From Rubricoccus marinus (lineage in GTDB: Bacteria; Bacteroidota; Rhodothermia; Rhodothermales; Rubricoccaceae): 64,000 nt of DNA. A program made the translations under genes and the position numbers. Position 1 is the first letter of the stretch; each line of letters begins with the position of its first letter. Positions 2,210-49,597 of the stretch are shown one piece after another. Under the pieces are notes generated by a model that was not told the origin of the DNA, made no database searches, and saw only the letters and a program-made list of their open reading frames with translations. The DNA is taken from contig NZ_MQWB01000001.1 in NCBI RefSeq assembly GCF_002257665.1, forward strand, positions 1,675,870 through 1,739,869, given 5' to 3'.

Positions 2210-2560
2210 TCAGCCGTGGGGATCGGGGTACAGCCGCTCTTCGATCGCGTCGGCGACGCCCGCGAGTTGGGCCGCGTCCATGCCGTCGAGGATCTTGCGC
2301 ATCGGCCTCTTCATGCCCTTAACCGCGAGGTCCAGCGCGACGCCGAGCGTCTTTCTCGTGATCGCGCCGACGCCGAGGTCCGCCAGAGGCCCGTTGAAGT
2401 GGTGGTCCATCGAGTGCTGAACCGAGGCGTGAATAAACGCGAAGGCCCGGTCCGATTTCTCGGCCTCTGGCGCCGAGCTGCGGAGAACGCGGATGGTCTC
2501 GCGCCCGTCTTCGGAGAGGGAGTCGGGCAGAGGGGTCGCGAGAAACCAGGAGCGGCTCAT
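2210..2560 (-). CDS. Conserved-looking small protein of unknown function
   Basis: 116 residues, start ATG at 2560 overlapping the stop of the upstream lipoprotein gene (ATGA), which fixes the start and implies translational coupling. No signal peptide or membrane segment. Mostly helical composition with HASVQHSMDHHFNGPLADLG (His-rich patch) near residues 44-63 and a basic stretch around KGMKRPMRK. I do not recognise the family. Its partner gene encodes a secreted lipoprotein, so a joint role at the envelope is possible but unproven. Confidence 0.7.
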   Translation of the reverse strand: MSRSWFLATPLPDSLSEDGRETIRVLRSSAPEAEKSDRAFAFIHASVQHSMDHHFNGPLADLGVGAITRKTLGVALDLAVKGMKRPMRKILDGMDAAQLAGVADAIEERLYPDPHG

Positions 2561-3321
2561 TGGAGGATCGGAAGGGGAGAGGTCCACGCGTCGGCTGGCG
2601 CGTCCTCGAAGGCGGTCGTCACGATGGCGGCGCCATCGGCCTTGCTCTTTCGCGTCATGAACGTCAACGTTCCGCTGGGCGACGCCAGAGGCTGCGGGCT
2701 GCCCCAGTCCCACGTCGTCACGTTCGTGTCGCCTTCGAGCACGTACGTCCATCCGCGTATCGCCCCGTCGGGGCCGACGCGTAGCCAGTAGCGGTCGCCC
2801 GGCGTGAGGCCGACGTCGCCGAACGAGAGCGCGAGAACGCGGTTGTCGCCTCTGGCGGAGTCGGGCGCGAGCGAGCGGTTCACGCCGGGGTCCATGACCT
2901 TGAGCGGCGCCAGAAGCCAGTACGTGTCGTTGATAAAGCGGGTGTAGCCGGCCGCGAGCAGGCTGTCTGCGGGGGGGGAGACCTCGCCGTTGACGTACGC
3001 AGCGCCAGAGGCCTCGCCTGCTGCGGACGCGGCAAGGTCCAGGATGACGACGGCCGTCGAGTCCTCGCCGACGCTCCACTCGACACGCGCCCGGTCTTCC
3101 CGTCGGTCCCAGAGGTGCCGCGCCTTGAACATCTCGACCGAGTCGCGCTCAAACGCCCAGTCGAATCGGAGCAGTGGGAGGTCGCTCCACGCGTCCCACC
3201 CGCCGCTAGCGTCAATGAGCTCCATCGCGAGGGAGTCTGCGGCGGTGGTCACCTCAGGGGTCGAGGGACCCGAGGTGCACCCTGCGAGGGCGAGTACCAA
3301 AATGAGGGCGAGAGAGCGCAT
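2557..3321 (-). CDS. Outer-membrane-type lipoprotein, possibly DUF6503-like
   Basis: 254 residues starting at ATG 3321. A signal peptide MRSLALILVLALAGC ends in a clear lipobox (LAGC), so the mature protein is expected to carry lipid on Cys15. The body has the Trp/Asp-rich beta pattern of LolA-like or DUF6503 lipoproteins of Bacteroidota, for example IDASGGWDAWSDLP near residue 37. It may bind a hydrophobic ligand or lipoprotein, but this is inference. First gene of a two-gene unit overlapping the downstream 116-residue protein by four bases. A polar CCGTTATTGCA motif lies 45 bp upstream of the start. Confidence 0.75.
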   Translation of the reverse strand: MRSLALILVLALAGCTSGPSTPEVTTAADSLAMELIDASGGWDAWSDLPLLRFDWAFERDSVEMFKARHLWDRREDRARVEWSVGEDSTAVVILDLAASAAGEASGAAYVNGEVSPPADSLLAAGYTRFINDTYWLLAPLKVMDPGVNRSLAPDSARGDNRVLALSFGDVGLTPGDRYWLRVGPDGAIRGWTYVLEGDTNVTTWDWGSPQPLASPSGTLTFMTRKSKADGAAIVTTAFEDAPADAWTSPLPILQ

Positions 3322-4328: not shown

Positions 4329-5159
4329 ATGAGCGAGAAACGAGTACGCAGCCCCATCATCCGAGCCCGCCGGTCGGGCCGAACCGGACGCCAGAGGCAA
4401 CGCGCGCGTGCTGCGGTGCCGAGCTTCTTCACGCTCATGAACCTCCTCGCGGGGTTCTTCTCCATTATCCAGACGTCGAATGGCAACTTGGAGGCGGCCG
4501 CCTGGCTCGTGGTCCTGGGCGCCTTTTTCGACCTCTTCGACGGCATCATGGCCCGATTGGCGGGCGTGTCGAGCGAGTTCGGAGTCGAGTTGGACAGCCT
4601 CTCGGACGTGGTCTCGTTTGGCGTGGCCCCGAGCTTCCTGCTCTACGAGTTCGGGTTGAACCAACTCGGTCCGATGTGGGGCGCGCTCCTGGCGAGCCTG
4701 CCCGCGCTGTTCGGCGCCGTGCGACTCGCGAAGTTCAACACCCTCGCGTCCTCTGGCGAGAAGTCCTCCGAGTTCATCGGACTACCTATCCCGGCGCAGG
4801 CTGGCACCGTAGTGGTGTTCATTCTCACCTTTTACGACGCGCAGTGGTTCAACGTCCTCGCGAGGCCCCAGATCTCGGTGTTGATCACCCTCGTGCTGGT
4901 GTTGTCTGCGCTGATGGTGTCGCCGGTCCGGTTTCCGGCGCTTCCCCAGCCGTCGCCGTCCAACCTCAGGGAGTATCGAGGACGGTTCTTACTGTTCGGG
5001 CTCGCGCTCGTCTTGGGCATCGTATTTCAGGAGGTGGGCCTGTTGATCTCAGCGCTCGTGTACCTCGCCATTGGGCTGGGCAAAACGTTGGGATGGGTCT
5101 ACCGCGTCGCGACCCAGGACCCGGACGCCGAGGCGGTTCCGGTCGAGGCCGAACCGTAG
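4329..5159 (+). CDS. pssA: CDP-diacylglycerol-serine O-phosphatidyltransferase
   Basis: 276 residues. Makes phosphatidylserine, precursor of phosphatidylethanolamine, from CDP-diacylglycerol and serine in the inner membrane. The CDP-alcohol phosphotransferase signature is present at about residues 71-93: DG..AR, then G and D...D in the expected spacing (DGIMAR, FGVELDSLSD). Several hydrophobic segments follow, with a basic N-terminus (residues 5-30). The ATG at 4329 is preferred over a long upstream extension, which has no family resemblance and would read through the hairpin at 4128. Followed 28 bp later by purS; the functions are unrelated. Confidence 0.88.
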   Translation: MSEKRVRSPIIRARRSGRTGRQRQRARAAVPSFFTLMNLLAGFFSIIQTSNGNLEAAAWLVVLGAFFDLFDGIMARLAGVSSEFGVELDSLSDVVSFGVAPSFLLYEFGLNQLGPMWGALLASLPALFGAVRLAKFNTLASSGEKSSEFIGLPIPAQAGTVVVFILTFYDAQWFNVLARPQISVLITLVLVLSALMVSPVRFPALPQPSPSNLREYRGRFLLFGLALVLGIVFQEVGLLISALVYLAIGLGKTLGWVYRVATQDPDAEAVPVEAEP

Positions 5160-5187
5160 TTTCCAGCCCACCCTTTTACGCAGTTCG

Positions 5188-5451
5188 ATGTACCGCGCTA
5201 CCGTCCACGTCACGCTTCGGCCTTCCATTCTCGACCCGCAGGGCAAAGCCATCCAGTCCGCGCTGGACTCGCTGGGGCAGACCGCTATCGAGAGCGTTCG
5301 CACCGGCAAGCGGTTCGTGCTGACGATCAACGCGGACTCCGAGCAGGAAGCGCGCGAGGCGGCCACCAAAGCTTGCGAAACGCTTCTGGCGAACGCGGTA
5401 ATGGAGGACTTTGAGGTCGAAAGCGTCCACGCACTCGAACTGGTAGCGTAG
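5188..5451 (+). CDS. purS: Phosphoribosylformylglycinamidine synthase subunit PurS
   Basis: 87 residues, the usual size for PurS, the small structural subunit of the three-part FGAM synthase in purine synthesis. It has the characteristic pattern VHVTLRPSILDPQGKAI near the start, then a helix with ALDSLG and a C-terminal EDFEVESV strand. It is expected to bridge PurL and PurQ, neither of which is here. The start at 5188 removes an upstream extension that overlaps pssA. clpS follows after 2 bp, so the two are likely cotranscribed. Confidence 0.88.
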   Translation: MYRATVHVTLRPSILDPQGKAIQSALDSLGQTAIESVRTGKRFVLTINADSEQEAREAATKACETLLANAVMEDFEVESVHALELVA

Positions 5452-40512: not shown

Positions 40513-41447
40513 GAGACCGCGGCTGCAATGCGGGCCTCTGGCGTCGGACTGGTGTCCGGCTCGAACGGACGACCTGTAACGGTCTCGTACAGCTCGATGT
40601 ATCGGCCCGTCACGTCGCGCACAAACTCCGGCGTCATGTCGGGCAGCGTTTGTCCGTCTTTGCCCTGGAAGCCGTTGGACATTAGCCACTCGCGCACAAA
40701 CTCTTTCGAGAGCTGGCGCTGCGGCTCGCCAGAGGCCAAACGGTCCTCGTAGCCGTCGGCGTAGTAGTAGCGGGATGAGTCCGGCGTGTGGATCTCGTCG
40801 ATGACGAGGAGCCGACCGTCTGGGGCTCGGCCAAACTCGTACTTCGTGTCGACGAGCAACAGGCCGCGTTCGGCGGCCATCTCCGTACCGCGGTCGAAAA
40901 GTGCCAGCGCGAGGTCAGCCGCGTGCTGAAGCGTGTCCGTATCCAGGAGGCCTCTGGCGACGATGTCGTGCCGCGAGATGTCTTCGTCGTGGCCTTCTTC
41001 CGCTTTGGTCGCCGGAGTCAGGATCGGCGTAGGCAACCGCTCGCTCTCACGGAGCCCTTCTGGTAGTCGTTCTCCGCAGAGCACCCGTTCGCCAGAGGCG
41101 TACACCCGGGCCGCGTGCCCCGCGAGGTAGCCGCGGACCACGAACTCAATCGGGAGCGGCTCGCAGGCGATTGCGACGGTGACGTTGGGGTCTGGTACGG
41201 AGAGCAGCGCATTGGGAGCTACATCAGACGTGCGCTCAAAGAAATAAGCCGCGAGACCGTTGAGCACCTGTCCCTTGAGAGGGATCGCCTGGCGCAGCAC
41301 GTGATCGAACGCCGAGATGCGATCCGTCGTGACGAGAATCATCCGTCCATCGCTCAGGCGATAGGTGTCGCGGACTTTGCCCTGGCGCCGCGTTCCGATG
41401 GAGAGGTGCGTTTCCGCCAGAGGCGGAGGTAGCGGGATCTCGGTCAC
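40500..41447 (-). CDS. purC: SAICAR synthetase
   Basis: 315 residues, the longer PurC type. Joins CAIR and aspartate in purine synthesis. RRQGKVRDTYRLSDGRMILV is the N-terminal motif, followed by TTDRISAFDHVL, IEFVVRGYLAGHA, LVDTKYEFG and IDEIHTPDSSRYY. The start ATG 41447 overlaps the stop of the LacI-type regulator, so the regulator and purC are transcribed together. Confidence 0.94.
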   Translation of the reverse strand: MTEIPLPPPLAETHLSIGTRRQGKVRDTYRLSDGRMILVTTDRISAFDHVLRQAIPLKGQVLNGLAAYFFERTSDVAPNALLSVPDPNVTVAIACEPLPIEFVVRGYLAGHAARVYASGERVLCGERLPEGLRESERLPTPILTPATKAEEGHDEDISRHDIVARGLLDTDTLQHAADLALALFDRGTEMAAERGLLLVDTKYEFGRAPDGRLLVIDEIHTPDSSRYYYADGYEDRLASGEPQRQLSKEFVREWLMSNGFQGKDGQTLPDMTPEFVRDVTGRYIELYETVTGRPFEPDTSPTPEARIAAAVSQLA

Positions 41448-42472
41448 GGGGCTTTCGTCGTGGAGCGGCGGGAGACAAGTTCGAGTTCGATCTCGGTGTT
41501 CAGCTTCTCGCCCGAGCCAGACGAGGCCATCCGCGCGACGAGGCGCTCGGCTGCGCGGCGACCGGTGTCCTGCATCTTCTGATCGACCGTGGTCAAGTCA
41601 AGAAAGCGGCTCAGCTTGAGGTTGTCGTAGCCCATGATGGATACCTCTCGCGGGACGCGGATGCCGTTGTCTCGCGCGTAGGACCACGCGCCAAAGGCCT
41701 GCACGTCTGATGCCGCGAAGACGGCGGTTGGCCGGTTGTCCAGCGCCATCAGCTTGGCCATCGCCTCAGCGCCGGCCTCTTCCGAGAACCCGGCGTGCTT
41801 GAGCGTCGCCCCCCGTACGACAAGCGAGGGGTCGAACGGGATGCCAGCAGCCTCAAGGGCCGCCGTGTATCCGGACAGCCTGGGTTCTGCGGCCTGGCTC
41901 CAAGGGTGAGCTGAGATCAGCGCGATGCGCGTGTGACCGAGCCCGATCAAGTGCTCAACCGCTAAGCGTGCGCCTCTGGCGTCGTCCCACCAGATCGAGT
42001 CGAAGGCGGGGTCTTTCGCGCCCAACAGGACTACGGGACCCTGCATCCTCTGGAGCGACGTGCGGACCTCAGTGCTTGGAGGCAACGACGTCAGCAGGAG
42101 GCCGCCTACGGCACCCCGGCTAAGAAAGCGCTCCAGTGACGCCTCCGGATCTACCGATCCGAGGTTGCAAAGCATGAGGTCCGTATCTCCGACCTCGCGC
42201 AGCACGTCCTTGATACCCTTCAGGATCTCGACGAAAAACAGCGAGGTAAACGAGGGCATCGCGACGGCAATGCCTGGCGACTCCTTCGATGCCAGCGAGC
42301 GCGCCATGCGTTGCGGCTGGAACTGGAGCCGGTCGATCGCATCGCGAACACGTTGCCGCGTCGTGTCAGAGACCTCGCTGGAGTTGTTGAGGACACGAGA
42401 GACGGTCGAGATGGCGACGCCAGCGGCGTCCGCAACGTCGTAGATCGTCGTCCGGGAAGAGGAGGGGGACAT
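41444..42472 (-). CDS. LacI-family transcriptional regulator
   Basis: 342 residues. Helix-turn-helix at the N-terminus: TIYDVADAAGVAISTVSRVL (about residues 8-27), with the hinge helix QRMARSLAS. The periplasmic-binding-like effector domain (60-335) shows LTSLPPS, GHTRIALISAHP and VFAASDVQAFGAWSYARDNG. Such proteins sense sugars. A LacI-type operator is found at 43373-43386 in front of a sugar ABC ATPase, a plausible target. Coupled to purC, an unusual partner. Confidence 0.9.
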   Translation of the reverse strand: MSPSSSRTTIYDVADAAGVAISTVSRVLNNSSEVSDTTRQRVRDAIDRLQFQPQRMARSLASKESPGIAVAMPSFTSLFFVEILKGIKDVLREVGDTDLMLCNLGSVDPEASLERFLSRGAVGGLLLTSLPPSTEVRTSLQRMQGPVVLLGAKDPAFDSIWWDDARGARLAVEHLIGLGHTRIALISAHPWSQAAEPRLSGYTAALEAAGIPFDPSLVVRGATLKHAGFSEEAGAEAMAKLMALDNRPTAVFAASDVQAFGAWSYARDNGIRVPREVSIMGYDNLKLSRFLDLTTVDQKMQDTGRRAAERLVARMASSGSGEKLNTEIELELVSRRSTTKAP

Positions 42473-42494: not shown

Positions 42495-42502
42495 CGAAGC
42501 TA
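42495..42502 (-). promoter_or_regulatory. Promoter -7-like box TAGCTTCG for lacI-type gene and purC
   Basis: TAnnTTCG on the - strand, 22 bp before the regulator ATG. It overlaps the last codons of the upstream kinase gene. Confidence 0.45.
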
Positions 42503-43351
42503 CGTACCCGAGGTGCCCTCGCGGAGACGCCAGGCGTAGTTGAGCGCGGGTTCGCCTCCAGCGATCGGTGTGGCGTGCCTTGTGGCCTCCACCGTTTCCC
42601 GAACCGCGGCCTGAAGCGCCACTTCGATTGAGTCTCCTTGAGACAACCGCGTTACAGCTGTTATTGCAAACAACGACTCCCTACCAATCGGTGCAGCCTG
42701 CGAAGGGACCTCAAAGAGAGCGAAGTCCTCTCCGTCGAAGTAGAGGTACGACGCCAGAGGCGAAGCCGCAGAGTCGCCGCCTGGGTCGTCGGCGGCATCG
42801 TAGAAACGGGCAGGGAGGACGCCACAGTCGATCAGGACGCCTTTCGCACCACGGTTCGAAAACCGCTGAGCGGCCACTTGCGCATCATCCAATGAGGTGA
42901 TCTCGCCGCCTGTCACCAGTTCCGCGTCCTGACGAGACACGAGAACCAGATCCGCGACCGCGAGATGCTCCGCCACAACGTCGATGCCACGAGCAGGCAG
43001 CACGGTCTCGCCACTGGGGCCAGACGCCACCAGCTCCAACACAACGGGCACATCGACGCCAGAGGCCCATTCGAGAACGGCTTTGGCATTCCGGTCGGAG
43101 CCCAGGATCCCGATTCGGACTCCTGCGATGTCAACCGCCTGGTGGACGTGTTCAAGCTGGGAGTACACCGTATCCACCGGGACCTCGGTCAGATCGGTCA
43201 CGGCATCGTGCGAGGCGACGACAATCGCGGTGCAGATCGTCACGGGCGTAAAGCCTCTGGCGCGAGAGGCCAGGATGTCGGACGCGAGGCCGCGCTCAGA
43301 ACCGGTGTAGAGGGCGCCGATGCACAGGATCGGCTGGAGGGAGTCTGTCAT
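42500..43351 (-). CDS. ThiD-like / PfkB-superfamily kinase
   Basis: 283 residues from ATG 43351. Ribokinase-fold protein of the hydroxymethylpyrimidine/pyridoxal kinase group: CIGALYTGSERGLASDILAS near the start, GVRIGILGSDRNAKAVLEW, VVLELVASGPSGE and a C-terminal SLFAITAVTRLSQGDS. The canonical GxGD-type catalytic end is changed: the expected Gly-Thr-Gly-Asp region reads ESLFAITAVT. Activity is therefore uncertain. A polar motif copy lies exactly in that segment. Confidence 0.72.
   Translation of the reverse strand: MTDSLQPILCIGALYTGSERGLASDILASRARGFTPVTICTAIVVASHDAVTDLTEVPVDTVYSQLEHVHQAVDIAGVRIGILGSDRNAKAVLEWASGVDVPVVLELVASGPSGETVLPARGIDVVAEHLAVADLVLVSRQDAELVTGGEITSLDDAQVAAQRFSNRGAKGVLIDCGVLPARFYDAADDPGGDSAASPLASYLYFDGEDFALFEVPSQAAPIGRESLFAITAVTRLSQGDSIEVALQAAVRETVEATRHATPIAGGEPALNYAWRLREGTSGT
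42658..42669 (+). repeat. Polar terminus motif, copy 5 (one mismatch)
   Basis: CTGTTATTGCAA, differing from the consensus only at base 2. Inside the ThiD-like gene, read as TTT GCA ATA ACA GCT. Confidence 0.7.
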
Positions 43352-43372
43352 TCGTCGGGGTAATGGGGAAAA

Positions 43373-43386
43373 TGTAAGCGCTTCCC
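43373..43386. promoter_or_regulatory. LacI-type operator between divergent genes
   Basis: TGTAAGCGCTTCCC, with a perfect AAGCGCTT palindromic core (43376-43383), fits the TGnAAnCGnTTnCA pattern of LacI-family operators. It lies between the ThiD-like gene (leftward) and the sugar ABC ATPase gene (rightward), about 19 bp upstream of the latter's -7 box. A LacI-family gene is about 0.9 kb away. Confidence 0.6.
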
Positions 43387-43404
43387 GCCAGAGGCTGTCG
43401 CCTC

Positions 43405-43412
43405 TATCTTCG
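43405..43412 (+). promoter_or_regulatory. Promoter -7-like box TATCTTCG
   Basis: TAnnTTCG box 22 bp before the ABC ATPase start; a decamer ends 9 bp upstream. Confidence 0.45.
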
Positions 43413-43434
43413 CGCATCTGCACCTGCTCACCCC

Positions 43435-44535
43435 ATGGCTACTGTCACCCTCGATCACGTCAAAAAGGAGTACGACAATGGGTTTGTCGCGGTCCACGAC
43501 GCAACGTTTCAGATCGAGCACGGGGAGTTCATCGTGCTCGTCGGTCCGTCGGGATGCGGCAAGAGTACCACGCTTCGCATGATCGCGGGGCTGGAGGATA
43601 TATCGGGTGGCACGCTCTCTATTGGGGGGCGCGTCGTTAACGAGGTGGCGCCCAAGGACCGCGACATCGCGATGGTGTTTCAGAACTACGCGCTCTATCC
43701 TCACCTCGACGTTTACGAGAACATGGCGTTCGGGCTCCGGCTTCGCAAAACGCCGAAGGCCGAGATCGATCAGCGTGTTCGGAACGCGGCGGAAAAGCTG
43801 GGGCTTGTCGATGAGCTCGAACGCAAGCCGAAGGCTCTTTCCGGAGGGCAGCGTCAGCGTGTGGCGCTTGGGCGCGCCATCGTGCGAAACCCGGCCGTTT
43901 TCCTGTTTGATGAGCCCCTTTCTAACCTCGACGCCAAGCTCCGCGTTCAAACCCGGACGCAGATCTCCAAGCTGCACCGAGAGCTGGATGCGACGATGAT
44001 CTACGTCACGCACGACCAAGTGGAAGCCATGACGATGGGCGACCGCATCGTAGTGCTGGACGCCGGGCACGTGCAACAGATCGCGCCGCCACTAGAGCTG
44101 TACAACCGCCCCGCGAACATCTTCGTCGCAGGCTTTATCGGCAGCCCGTCCATGAATTTCATCGAGGGTGCTGTGGAAGTCTCGGCCTCTGGCGCCGTTT
44201 TCGTGTCTCCCGGTTTGGAGCCTCTGGCGCTGAGGGGAGCGCCTACCGCGTCGTCCGGCATCACGTTAGGGTGCCGCCCAGAGGACCTTTACGTGCATGG
44301 CGTCGCGCCAGAGGCCAAGTCACTCGTTGATCTCGGGGCGTTTACAGTGGACGTGCTGGAGCCGATGGGGAATGAGATCGTCCTGTACGCGAGCCGCGGA
44401 GGAACCAGCCTTGTGGCGCGCGTGGAGCCTCAGGAGCTACCCGAGCCCGGTGCGAGCGTGTCCCTGAGCGCAGACGCGACGAAGCTGCACCTGTTCGATA
44501 CCGCCAGCGGCGTCTCGCTCGCGCACGGTATCTGA
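43435..44535 (+). CDS. Sugar ABC transporter ATPase (MalK/UgpC/MsmK type)
   Basis: 366 residues. Powers carbohydrate uptake. Walker A GPSGCGKST (about residues 37-45), Q-loop FQNYALYPHLDV, signature LSGGQRQRVALGRA, Walker B VFLFDEPLSNLD and switch His in YVTHDQVEAMT are all intact. Residues 240-360 form the TOBE/OB regulatory part, with PSMNFIEGAV and LGCRPEDLYV. No permease or binding protein is adjacent, so it may serve several transporters, as MsmK does. Likely regulated through the LacI-type operator just upstream. Confidence 0.93.
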   Translation: MATVTLDHVKKEYDNGFVAVHDATFQIEHGEFIVLVGPSGCGKSTTLRMIAGLEDISGGTLSIGGRVVNEVAPKDRDIAMVFQNYALYPHLDVYENMAFGLRLRKTPKAEIDQRVRNAAEKLGLVDELERKPKALSGGQRQRVALGRAIVRNPAVFLFDEPLSNLDAKLRVQTRTQISKLHRELDATMIYVTHDQVEAMTMGDRIVVLDAGHVQQIAPPLELYNRPANIFVAGFIGSPSMNFIEGAVEVSASGAVFVSPGLEPLALRGAPTASSGITLGCRPEDLYVHGVAPEAKSLVDLGAFTVDVLEPMGNEIVLYASRGGTSLVARVEPQELPEPGASVSLSADATKLHLFDTASGVSLAHGI

Positions 44536-45128: not shown

Positions 45129-45156
45129 ACTTGCGATAACAGTTATTATCGCGATG
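45129..45156. other. dif-like Xer recombination site
   Basis: 28 bp in the 11-6-11 layout of dif sites: left arm ACTTGCGATAA, centre CAGTTA, right arm TTATCGCGATG. The arms are inverted repeats at 8 of 11 positions, meeting the centre as ATAA and TTAT, as in known dif sites; the left arm shares TGCG and ATAA with the E. coli XerC arm. It lies 40 bp before the Xer-type recombinase gene. It is A+T-rich in a G+C-rich surround and sits where the polar motif changes strand. It could instead be an operator for the recombinase gene. Confidence 0.7.
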
Positions 45157-45196
45157 GAGTATATCAGCCCTTCGAAGCTACTCGTCTCGTCGCCCC

Positions 45197-46162
45197 ATGG
45201 ACTCTGATGTAACGATCTTTGCTGGCGCATCCCCGCCTGAGTATGACCTGGCCTCTGGCGATTCTGATCTCATCCGGCTTTTCCTGCTGCGCTACGATCG
45301 GCCCAACACTCGCCGCTCCTATGAACGGGACTTACAGTCTTTCTTTGGCACAGAGGTCGTAACGCTTAATCAGGCCAGGCAGGTCACGTTTGTTCAGGTA
45401 AACGGATACATCCAGGCGCTTGAAGATGCGGACTACGCACCTGCAACACTCCGAAGGCGTATAGCCTCATTACGGGGATTCTTTGCATGGCTGATTGCAT
45501 TAGGCGCGCTCGACACGAACCCCGCTGACCGGCACGTGATACGGCGTGTAAAACGCTCTGGTGGCTCTGATCGCGCTATAACGGTTTTATCCAAGGAGCA
45601 GTCCCGGCAACTCATCGAGGCCGTAGATATGGACCATGCCTCTGGCGTGCGGAATCGGGCGCTTCTCTATACGCTCTTGCATTGCGTACTTAGAAGGTCT
45701 GAGGCTGCCGCAATGAACTTCGAACACGTCCGCCCGGTCGGGAGACATTGGGTCCTAGACTTACCCAGCACAAAAGGCGGCGCCGATCAATTCGTCAAGC
45801 TTCCTGATTTGGTTCGCAATCAGCTGGACGACTTGTCGTCTTACTACGGTGCCACGTCTGGCCCTGTCTGGAGATCATTGAGCCCGAACAGCTATGGGAG
45901 GAGGCTGTCTACAACGTCCATTTATGACATCGTAAACAAGACGGCTCGGAAAGCTGGTATCCAGGCTACCGTTGGAGCTCACACGCTCCGCCATACGGGG
46001 TGCACGCTCGCGATCGAAGCGGGTGCGACAGTCCAACAGGTTCAGACACACGCGCGGCATAAAAACCTGGAGACCACGATGATCTACGTGCACCAGCGGG
46101 ACAAGCTTGCGGACAGCGCAGCAGACTTCATCGACCTTGGTGAGAACGGCGGGAACGAGTAG
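45197..46162 (+). CDS. Xer-type tyrosine recombinase
   Basis: 321 residues. N-terminal SAM-like core-binding domain (about 22-110: [17 protein letters not shown]). The catalytic domain has the full set: Arg166 in LRRSEA, Lys193 in STKGG, His262 and Arg265 in HTLRH, His288 in ARHKN and Tyr297 in IYVH. Size and layout match XerC/XerD rather than phage integrases. The usual GLR is VLR and LGH is ARH, so it is a divergent member. The dif-like site just upstream recalls the single-recombinase systems XerS/difSL and XerH/difH. Probably resolves chromosome dimers at division. Confidence 0.85.
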
Positions 46163-46203
46163 CGCCGCCAGAGGCTACGCCGTGTGACCAACCAGCCTCT
46201 GGC

Positions 46204-47745
46204 GTGCCCCTCTCCTCCCGACCGGATTACGACCTCATTGTCATTGGTGCTGGGCATAACGCCCTCATCAGCGCAGCGTACGTCGCGCAAGCGGGCTACC
46301 GCGTGGCCGTGTTCGAGCGCCGCGACATCGTCGGTGGAGCGGTTTCCACCCGCGAAATCGTCCCAGGATATCAGTTCGACCTGGGGGGCTCCGCTCACAT
46401 CCTCATTCGTCTAACGCCGATCATCGAGGAGTTGGGACTTGAACAGTACGGACTGGACTACATCGAGCTAGACCCGCTGTTTTCCGCGCCATTCGAGGAC
46501 GGGGACCACCTGTTTATCTGGAGAGACGTGGACAAGACGGCCGACGACCTTGAGCGGCGATTTCCAGGAGAAGGAGACGCGTACAAGCGTTTTATCGACG
46601 AGTGGACGCCTTTCGCCAACACGGTAAAGGAGACGTTCCTGCGTTCGCCGAGCCCGTTCGAGATCGGAAAAACGTTTGCGCTTGGTGACTCGGCGAAAAT
46701 CGACTGGCAGCGAGCGATGCAAGCCATCCTTCAGCCCTATGGTGACGTCGTAGATCAGTACTTCACCGAGGAGAAGGTCAAGGCCCCCTTGGTCTGGATG
46801 GCGGCTCAGTCGGGGCCTCCGCCCACCGAACCGCTTACCGCTCCGTTCCTGCTCTGGCACCCTCTCTATCACCAGGGTGGAGTCGCGCGGCCACGAGGAG
46901 GCTCGGGGATGCTCACACAGGCACTTCGCCGCCACATCGAGGCCCACGGCGGTGACGTGTTCACGAGCAGCGCTGTCGACGAGATCCTTGTCGAGGACGG
47001 CCGGGCCTCTGGCGTCCGCGTAGGCACCGACATCAGTACCGCCAGAGGCGTACTCGCGGGCACGCACATCTTGGAGAGCGTCGGTCGCCTGCTGCCGTCG
47101 GAATACCGCCCAGAGTCGTTGAAGGGCGTCCGCGTAGGGAACGGGTTTGGCGCCATCCTGCGGCTCGCGCTGTCCGAACCCGTGCGATACAGCTCACATC
47201 CCGGAGACGACGCCCGGATCGGGCTTGGACTCGTGTGTCGAGACCGGCAGCAGATTATGGACGCGTATGCCGACTACCTCCGCGGCGAACCGGCAAAGGA
47301 CCCGCCCATCGTGGCGATGAGCTTTTCAGCCGTCGACGATTCCCTCGCGCCTGCAGGAGGCGAAGCACTGTGGTTGTGGGGACAGTACTTCCCATACGAG
47401 CTCTCAGGAGGCCGCTCATGGGCCGACATTGAGGAGGGGGTCGCCGATTCCATCTTGACGGCCTTCGAAAAGGTGGCACCTGGCACGCGCGAGAACATCA
47501 TGGGCCAGTTGTTTCAGCACCCGGAGTGGCTAGAGCGCGAGCTCGGATTGCGCCGCGGAAACGTGATGCACGTTGAGATGTCGATCGACCAGATGTTCTC
47601 GCTTCGTCCCACGATGGACCTCTCCCAGTACAAAGGCCCCGTCGATGGTCTCTTCCTGACGGGCGCGAGCACGCACCCCGGCGGCGGGATTATGGGCGCC
47701 AGCGGCCGAAACGCGGCTCGTGTCGTCCTGAAAGCTCTCTCATGA
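46204..47745 (+). CDS. Phytoene-desaturase-like FAD oxidoreductase
   Basis: 513 residues from GTG 46204 (no ATG in a suitable place). FAD-binding Rossmann motif [19 protein letters not shown] (about residues 13-31) with the following [10 protein letters not shown]. The C-terminal FAD motif reads [20 protein letters not shown] (about 483-502). This is the CrtI/PDS-like superfamily, in the branch closest to carotenoid ketolases and oxidoreductase PYROXD2-like proteins. With a lycopene cyclase overlapping downstream, carotenoid desaturation or oxidation is the best guess. Confidence 0.8.
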
Positions 47746-48467
47746 CCTACCTCACCTTTCACCTGGTGTTTGTCCTGCCGCCGATCGCGCTTCTCGCGAT
47801 TGCCCAGAAGAAGCCTCTGGCGGGAGTCGGCGCGCCAGAGGCCCTGAAGTGGATGGGCGCCGTACTCGCGCTCGCGTTCGTCTACACGACGCCCTGGGAC
47901 AATTACCTGGTGGCAAACGAAGTCTGGACGTATCCCCCGGGGCGCGTGTTGGCGACGATCGGGTACGTGCCCGTTGAGGAGTACGCGTTTTTCCTCCTGC
48001 AGCCTGTCTTAACGGGCCTGTTCTACTTCTTGCTTCGTGGCCGTGGGATTACCGACTCCGCTCCAAAGGCAAGCCCGAAGGGTTTTAGAGCTGCGCTCGT
48101 GGCTGCGTTTGTGACGCTCACAGCCGCCGGTGCAGTGTGCTTGATCACTGGGGGGCATACGCTGTACCTCGGACTCGTGCTCGCGTGGGCGGCCCCTGTG
48201 ATCGCGGGTTTGAGCTGGGTCGGGGCCCATAAGATCTGGGAGGAGCGCGCTCGTGTAGCGATCTCCATTGCCATCCCATCCCTGTACCTCTGGGCTGCGG
48301 ACCGTTTCGCGATCCTAGACGGGATCTGGAACATCACGGACGCGACGAGGACAGGCATCGAGATATTCAGCCTTCCCATAGAGGAAGCCATCTTCTTCGT
48401 GGTCACCAACGTCCTCTGTGTGTTTGGCCTCGTGCTGTTCCTGCCTTCACCCCGTACCACGCGATGA
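47742..48467 (+). CDS. Lycopene cyclase, CrtYcd-type membrane protein
   Basis: 241 residues with six or seven hydrophobic helices, in the size range of fused c and d halves of the heterodimeric cyclase. Each half shows its motif: [15 protein letters not shown] and [12 protein letters not shown] in the first; [12 protein letters not shown] in the second, where the acidic pairs are thought to form the active site. Makes beta-carotene-type rings from lycopene in the inner membrane. ATGA overlaps join it to the desaturase upstream and moeB-like gene downstream. Confidence 0.85.
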
Positions 48468-49597
48468 GTACGTTCAGCGCCCGCGAGCTAGAGCGATATA
48501 GCCGGCAAACCCGGTTGCCTCAGATTGGTCTCAGCGGCCAGCAAACGCTGCGCGAGGCGTCCGTTCTGATCGTTGGAGCCGGCGGGTTGGGTTCGCCAGC
48601 GGCCTTGTACCTGGCGGCCTCTGGCGTGGGCCGGCTGGGACTGGTGGACGATGATGCAGTAGACCGGAGCAACCTCCACCGGCAGGTGCTCTATGGCGAG
48701 TCTGACGTGGGCGTCGGGAAGGCGGAGGCCGCAGCTCGCCGCTTGCGCGACATGAACCCCGAAGTGGACATCGTGGTGCATGCGGAGCGCTTTGATGCCT
48801 CCAATGCGGATCACCTGGTGAGCGGATACGATGTCGTCCTCGATGGGACGGATACGTTCGCCACGCGCTACCTGATCAACGACGCGTGCGTGCTTAACGA
48901 GACGGTCAACGTGTCTGCATCGGTCTCATCGTTCAGTGGTCAGTTGTTCATACGAACCAATAACGGACCCTGCTACCGCTGCTTGTATCCGGAACCCCCG
49001 CCAGAGGCCCTCGCCCCCTCGTGTGCTGAGGCTGGCGTCCTCGGCGTCGTTCCGGGTGTTCTGGGGATGCTCCAGGCGACCGAGGCGACCAAGTGGATTC
49101 TCGGCGTCGGAGATCCGCTTGAAGGTCGACTTCTCATTGCCGACCTCCTGACCATGCGATTTCGGGACATCCTCGTGGATCGCGATCCGGACTGCCCTGT
49201 CTGTGGGCACTCTCCAACGATTCGATCGCTGGACGACGCTTCGACCCTCGACACGGCCGCGTGCACACCCCAGATGCCGACTCCCACACTGACCGTTCAA
49301 GACCTTAAAACTCGACTCGACGCGGGAGAGGACGTCTTTCTGCTTGATGTGCGCAGCCGGGACGAACACGCGTTTGCAGACATCGGGGGCGCGATTATTC
49401 CCCTCCCCGAGCTTTCCAACCGATGGGACGAACTGGATCCCTACGCTGATCGAGCCCTCGTGGTCTACTGCAAAAGCGGAGGCCGTTCAGGCGTCGCGGT
49501 CTCGATGCTTCAGTCGAGGGGCTTTGATGCTTTGAGCCTAGAGGGTGGGATCGACGCGTGGAGCGAGGAGATAGACCCGTCTGTCCCGAGGTATTGA
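48464..49597 (+). CDS. moeB: MoeB/ThiF-type adenylyltransferase with rhodanese domain
   Basis: 377 residues. The E1-like domain (about 1-245) activates the C-terminus of MoaD or ThiS: VLIVGAGGLGSPAALYLAASG (ATP loop), RSNLHRQVLY, LDGTDTFATRYLIND, and zinc cysteines CYRCLYP and CPVCGHS. A rhodanese domain (about 280-372) ends in VYCKSGGRSGVAV with the active Cys. This fusion moves sulfur for molybdopterin or thiamin synthesis; moaE at 38183 may use it. Coupled to the lycopene cyclase gene, with which it shares no function. Confidence 0.9.
   Translation: MSTFSARELERYSRQTRLPQIGLSGQQTLREASVLIVGAGGLGSPAALYLAASGVGRLGLVDDDAVDRSNLHRQVLYGESDVGVGKAEAAARRLRDMNPEVDIVVHAERFDASNADHLVSGYDVVLDGTDTFATRYLINDACVLNETVNVSASVSSFSGQLFIRTNNGPCYRCLYPEPPPEALAPSCAEAGVLGVVPGVLGMLQATEATKWILGVGDPLEGRLLIADLLTMRFRDILVDRDPDCPVCGHSPTIRSLDDASTLDTAACTPQMPTPTLTVQDLKTRLDAGEDVFLLDVRSRDEHAFADIGGAIIPLPELSNRWDELDPYADRALVVYCKSGGRSGVAVSMLQSRGFDALSLEGGIDAWSEEIDPSVPRY

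Follow-up and report, generated by a model that had tools for sequence, protein, structure and literature searches.

A putative chromosomal dif site beside a candidate single Xer recombinase at the replication terminus of Rubricoccus marinus

We analyzed a stretch of 64,000 nucleotides from Rubricoccus marinus (Rhodothermales), hereafter the window, which covers positions 1,675,870 to 1,739,869 of a 3.95-Mb contig (NZ_MQWB01000001.1) of the genome denoted G000. On the forward strand at 45129-45156, the window sequence contains a 28-bp inverted repeat of 11-6-11 architecture, which consists of the left arm ACTTGCGATAA (45129..45139), a 6-bp central spacer, CAGTTA (45140..45145), and the right arm TTATCGCGATG (45146..45156). 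The inner 7 bp of both arms are perfect (GCGATAA/TTATCGC), and altogether 8 of the 11 arm positions pair, the right outer arm being only partly symmetric. The ATG of a gene encoding a tyrosine recombinase of 321 aa, a putative single Xer recombinase designated O (45197..46162, forward strand), lies 40 bp past the end of this putative dif-like site, exactly as the initial annotation had reported. The conserved neighbors are a MalK-like ABC-transporter ATPase gene on the site side (43435..44535, forward) and a phytoene-desaturase/crtI-like FAD oxidoreductase gene downstream of O (46204..47745, forward). The outer syntenic block comprises the genes for a LacI-type regulator (41444-42472, reverse), a hydroxymethylpyrimidine-kinase-like protein (42500-43423, reverse), a lycopene-cyclase-like protein (47742-48467, forward) and a ThiF/rhodanese protein (48464-49597, forward). 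A further inverted repeat, CGCCAGAGGCT...AGCCTCTGGCG, is located between the stop of O and the crtI-like start (46166-46204), and the words GCCAGAGGC/GCCTCTGGC are repeated around and within the O gene.

The 20-bp core of the site, GCGATAA-N6-TTATCGC, occurred once in the 4.43-Mb genome with up to one mismatch allowed, in agreement with the earlier expectation of a single copy. The shorter pattern GATAA-N6-TTATC had two copies, the second of which, on contig C14, has poor arms (6/11) and overlaps an open frame.

Recombinase O matched the integrase catalytic domain (PF00589, E 1.1e-22) and the SAM-like N-domain (PF02899). Alignment with its relatives revealed a complete R-K-H-R-H-Y set (R166, K193, H262, R265, H288 and Y297), verifying the six catalytic residues noticed previously. 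Against the curated profiles, O scored below the cut-offs for the XerS equivalog NF003462 (48.2 bits, cut-off 267), the XerA equivalog NF040815 (107.8 bits, cut-off 220), XerC TIGR02224 (116.2, cut-off 335) and XerD TIGR02225 (121.6, cut-off 330), suggesting from sequence that O falls outside these four Xer families. The comparison with XerH used the sequences of structure chains in place of a profile and gave a weak match of 26.8 bits, below those to XerA and IntI4. In the phylogenetic tree, O formed a single firm clade essentially limited to Rhodothermales, and two other groups described below, the recombinase X and the Xer homologue D, were each firm clades as well; the deep joins were weak. 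In a public genome scan, close homologues of O were confined to Rhodothermales. O is best read as a putative new Xer subfamily.

We collected the O homologues from the 80 relatives and the public genome scan, and used as a test set the 53 for which 150 bp or more of upstream sequence was available. An exact GATAA-N6-TTATC was present within 1 kb upstream of 33 of the 53, while the reversed control pattern was found upstream of 0/53, and the motif itself in an equal-length downstream stretch of 0/53. The 29 distinct sites share the rough consensus A-Y-N-Y-N-Y-GATAA-N6-TTATC-R-N-R-N-N-T, with spacer letters that differ between relatives and a spacer length of 6 that was built into the search pattern. 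Over these sites, the arms co-vary symmetrically. Mirroring of the outer six positions was 0.632 within a site versus 0.405 ± 0.033 after re-pairing of arms from different sites, and 0/5000 permutations reached the observed value, a count that is not a strict probability because the sequences are related. In some sites, such as ACTTCCGATAA-cagttc-TTATCGGAAGT and ATGTTTGATAA-gtatta-TTATCAAACAT, all 11 bp pair perfectly although the arm letters differ. Mirrored arms with varying letters are the selection that would be expected if one protein binds both arms. The earlier proposal that the arms should be conserved upstream of homologous genes was thus upheld by both the core and the outer positions, and the 29 symmetric, co-varying sites, matched with their recombinases, provide material for work on specificity.

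Several O homologues had no recognizable site within 1 kb upstream, including those of Rhodothermus and extra copies in G047, G059, G053, G006 and G014. The extra O-like copies at G047:C1:97113, G047:C22:13643, G059:C59:1015, G059:C404:310, G053:C11:1238, G006:C3:2091676 and G014:C230:1029 have complete catalytic residues, and are possibly carried by mobile elements.

A palindrome that precedes the gene in most relatives could also be an operator, by which O or another protein regulates the O gene, instead of a recombination site. Salinibacter-type genomes retain GATAA-N6-TTATC before a catalytically decayed O, which fits a role in DNA binding only. However, the site and O are separated by an endonuclease gene of about 180-230 codons in at least five relatives, in which the site is 600-810 bp upstream. 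Moreover, the Rhodothermus genes (46-48% identity to O) have no palindrome next to them in their upstream regions, and a genome pattern search placed the Rhodothermus TTGCGATAA-N6-TTATC sites 4.8 kb (G024), 24 kb (G035) and 75 kb (G010) from O, yet still near the terminus (0.478 of the chromosome in G024 and 0.489 in G010). The 11-6-11 architecture is also the same as that of dif. The unlinking in Rhodothermus and the intervening endonuclease genes indicate that the site is more than an operator for the O gene. We therefore consider the operator explanation very unlikely as an alternative to dif, but the two roles may coexist in the same palindrome. As for the adjacency of site and gene emphasized in the initial annotation, it applies to the 33 homologues mentioned above, but not to the three Rhodothermus genomes.

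The intervening endonucleases are of the HNH_3/NUMOD4 type (identified with Pfam in four cases and by eye in L286) and occur in both orientations (L142 7304-8002, L141 7322-7982, L274 about 2346-3010, L286 2291-2935 and L290 2189-2903). In L353, O and X are separated by a similar ORF (5038-5412), and homing-type endonucleases seem to be drawn to the dif/O locus. We also found a near-copy of the chromosomal dif-like site, AGTTGCGATAA atccac TTATCATAAGT, on the 125-kb second replicon of G024 (contig C2 114641, L347), which suggests that the host recombinase may also resolve multimers of this replicon.

We examined the position of the locus in G000 and nine other complete or nearly complete genomes. 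In G000, dnaA is located at 3553137 and O at 1721066 of the contig, a distance of 0.537 of its length. The corresponding distances were 0.468 (G010), 0.531 (G015), 0.476 (G019), 0.528 (G020), 0.476 (G024), 0.499 (G031), 0.458 (G041), 0.605 (G032) and 0.572 (G004). Six family representatives (G000, G010, G015, G019, G020 and G041) were within 4.2% of the point exactly opposite dnaA, for which the chance probability is 0.084^6, or about 3.5e-7. The GC skew of G019 changed from +0.067 to -0.090 between 0.472 and 0.486, a sign flip spanning 1.4% of the chromosome, with the site inside this interval at 0.476. For G000, sampled as 63 pieces of 20 kb, the skew was weak (R2 0.11, p 0.015). When a step was fitted with dnaA taken as the origin, the best fit gave a terminus at 1.74 Mb; the site, at 1.721 Mb, is 20 kb away. 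No usable terminus was obtained from the AT skew. These data show that the O locus sits at the replication terminus, with a skew switch that is clear in G019 and weak in G000. The XerCD-type canonical dif, TAACATAA-N6-TTATGTTA, was tried as a candidate in G000 and rejected, as up to three mismatches gave matches at the control level only. A better dif elsewhere, which the initial annotation had named among the findings that would refute its reading, did not emerge from this search, and it is the O locus opposite dnaA that coincides with the skew switch.

A genome profile search detected 16 PF00589 proteins in G000, including O. The 15 others are mostly of mobile-element or integron types, together with a catalytically dead Xer homologue. 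When six of the non-O proteins were scored against NCBIfam, one exceeded the integron-integrase cut-off and none exceeded those for XerC/XerD. No protein in the 80 genomes searched was above the XerD cut-off; most control genomes likewise have nothing that reaches the XerC/XerD cut-offs, and a XerC/XerD could thus escape through divergence alone. The check for further Xer genes suggested earlier revealed no XerC/XerD at cut-off among the proteins scored, and the other PF00589 proteins refine the original picture. The FtsK-gamma domain (PF09397) was found in G000 (E 4.6e-28) and in 10 of 11 other genomes, that is, in 11/12 tested.

The dead homologue, D, is encoded at C1:2871257-2872225 of G000 (L011/L108), directly after a 2-oxo-acid dehydrogenase E2-like gene, and its family occurs in 76/80 genomes (orthologues at loci L109-L137 and L169-L174). 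In all inspected members outside family f15 in which the region is intact, the first catalytic Arg is replaced by Ser or Ala and the second by Thr. The Tyr is replaced by Ser as well in five members of family f1 (G000, G004, G006, G007 and G008), and most catalytic positions have drifted in f15. D is otherwise well conserved across the order. Judging from these sequences, D is presumably a conserved Xer homologue without catalytic activity; because it persists although both catalytic arginines are lost, a non-catalytic function is probable. This wide distribution raises the alternative of a two-recombinase system, in which O would pair with a second Xer protein such as D as a structural partner. 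However, the inner half-site is identical on both arms and the mirroring often extends over 11 bp, which fits a single protein; nothing connects D with the site, and D would be unable to catalyze the second strand exchange. We regard such a pairing as very improbable indeed.

Another explanation is that the gene and site form a mobile element, an integrase with its attachment site, sitting at the terminus like the phages and elements that use dif. The patchy presence of O in the order and the siteless extra copies in some genomes are compatible with this, as are near-perfect ACTTCCGATAA-N6-TTATCGGAA palindromes on some viral contigs. However, the core site is present in one copy, so there is no flanking att pair around a cargo, as an IMEX-like element should have. 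Nor is there any cargo, a conserved chromosomal gene starting about 40 bp after O. The same neighbor genes are found in several families, and the tree groups the O family's own members. Searches of viral and plasmid sequences revealed no mobile home for O: the one viral relative has 39% identity, and the plasmid relatives listed have at most 34%. The mobile-element explanation therefore appears extremely unlikely. Among 21 viral contigs matching ACTTSCGATAA-N6-TTATCG, five (L365, L367, L369, L379 and L381) have arms that pair at 10/11 positions, above chance for the free positions; these viral palindromes may mimic dif and serve in integration.

Chromosome dimer resolution is near-universal, and the known single-recombinase Xer systems are, to our knowledge, a handful, XerS, XerH, XerA and XerL. 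We found no description of Xer or dif in Rhodothermota in the literature searched. Taken together, the site and its single copy, its conservation and co-variation, the catalytic residues, the terminus position, the lack of XerC/XerD equivalogs at cut-off and the FtsK-gamma domain make it highly probable that the 28-bp site is the chromosomal dif and that the adjacent O is the only recombinase acting there, as a homotetramer assisted by FtsK. The earlier suggestion of another single-recombinase system is supported by these data. The conserved gene order and the single O clade also favor this reading; points against it are the weak skew of G000, the O homologues that have no recognizable site within 1 kb, the seven genomes of 90% or more completeness with neither O nor X, and the incomplete symmetry of the right outer arm. 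From them we infer the binding, the homotetramer, the cleavage positions and the FtsK control at the site. A chromosome dimer trapped at the division septum would bring two copies of dif together, and four identical O subunits would bind the near-symmetric arms of the two copies. Using Tyr297, O would then cleave where the 6-bp spacer meets the arms, and both strand pairs would be exchanged in turn to convert the dimer to monomers. FtsK most likely drives DNA toward the site and sets off the exchange.

O/dif would work as a gene-plus-site module at the terminus like XerS/difSL and XerH/difH (PMC5357621, PMC2731167), but belongs to none of the families tested by profile. In streptococci and lactococci, the single recombinase gene xerS lies beside dif at the terminus and is linked to FtsK (PMC5357621, PMC2958812). 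O is likewise beside its site at the terminus, in a genome with FtsK-gamma, but difSL has 31 bp with an 11-bp center, in contrast to the 28 bp and 6-bp center in R. marinus, and the XerS profile score of O is far below cut-off. XerH of epsilonproteobacteria is a single recombinase that is usually linked to dif and depends on FtsK (PMC2731167, PMC5357621). O shares the linkage of a single recombinase to its site, but XerH has 354-362 aa, compared with the 321 aa of O, and the difH arms, AGTTATGAAAA and AAAAGTTTGA, differ from the R. marinus half-sites. The XerL/dif system of Legionellales is lineage-specific and divergent, is missed by XerCD homology searches and has its dif at the terminus (PMC9765430). 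The O system is similarly a lineage-specific, divergent single recombinase with a terminus site; compared by description, the active Tyr is at 387-389 in XerL and at 297 in O. In archaea, the single recombinase XerA acts with a dif-like site at the terminus, near xerA in some Euryarchaeota (PMC2958812), but archaea lack FtsK, unlike R. marinus, and O scores about half the XerA cut-off. With XerC/XerD-dif, the O system shares the 11-6-11 site, the inner TAA/TTA, the catalytic residues, the terminus position and FtsK-gamma; it differs in having one recombinase, near-symmetric arms, the inner half-site GATAA/TTATC instead of CATAA/TTATG, and scores of 116-122 versus cut-offs of 330-335. With O/dif, the single-recombinase systems gain a deep bacterial lineage whose site and enzyme form a compact module.

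Several families preserve, completely or partially, the gene order LacI, kinase, ABC ATPase, recombinase, crtI-like, cyclase and ThiF around O. In many relatives without O, another recombinase, X, is present, and the tree does not place it near O. A canonical dif-type palindrome with the core CATAA-N6-TTATG, for example ATGTAACATAA-ttatcc-TTATGTTACAT, directly precedes X in many of them, and X in G070 is located 0.507 from dnaA. Seven f15 loci have this ABC gene next to X, and in Salinibacter-type genomes the crtI-like gene is near O plus X; these shared neighbors indicate that O and X occupy one locus. In a census of 67 genomes of at least 90% completeness, with O counted at 39% identity or more, O was present in 33 and X in 26, both occurred together in G057 only, where Arg replaces the catalytic Lys of O, and seven genomes had neither. 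In G005 (88% complete), both are present and intact. A divergent O (33-36% identity) lies next to X in six Salinibacter-type genomes, and two more have the divergent O with no X detected. In the five inspected (G020, G031, G052, G063 and G069), X is intact, but catalytic Lys, His or Tyr positions of the divergent O are lost. Switches between O and X were also seen inside family f5 and genus g32 (O in G051 and G065, X in G062). The initial proposal of a single-recombinase system in the Rhodothermota is supported for O, with the refinement that part of the order has another recombinase/dif pair in the same slot.

One hypothesis, which we judge to have an even chance of being correct, is that the Rhodothermales terminus is a replaceable slot, in which complete recombinase-plus-dif modules of the unrelated O and X, and possibly a third type, T, are swapped between the same neighbors, sometimes inside one genus, the old recombinase can decay in place, and D keeps a non-catalytic role. 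Natural module swaps with decay of the replaced enzyme would make the change of an important recombination system directly testable. Type T is only a lead as a third terminus type, with two genomes and a 7-bp spacer. This recombinase, unrelated to O and X, is encoded in G046 (L348, C1 855500-858000) and G018 (L349, C72), both of which lack O and X. It adjoins the crtI-like gene in G018; in G046 it lies 0.503 from dnaA and has ACTTCCGATAA-gatgcaa-TTACCGGAAGT, with O-like arms, at its start.
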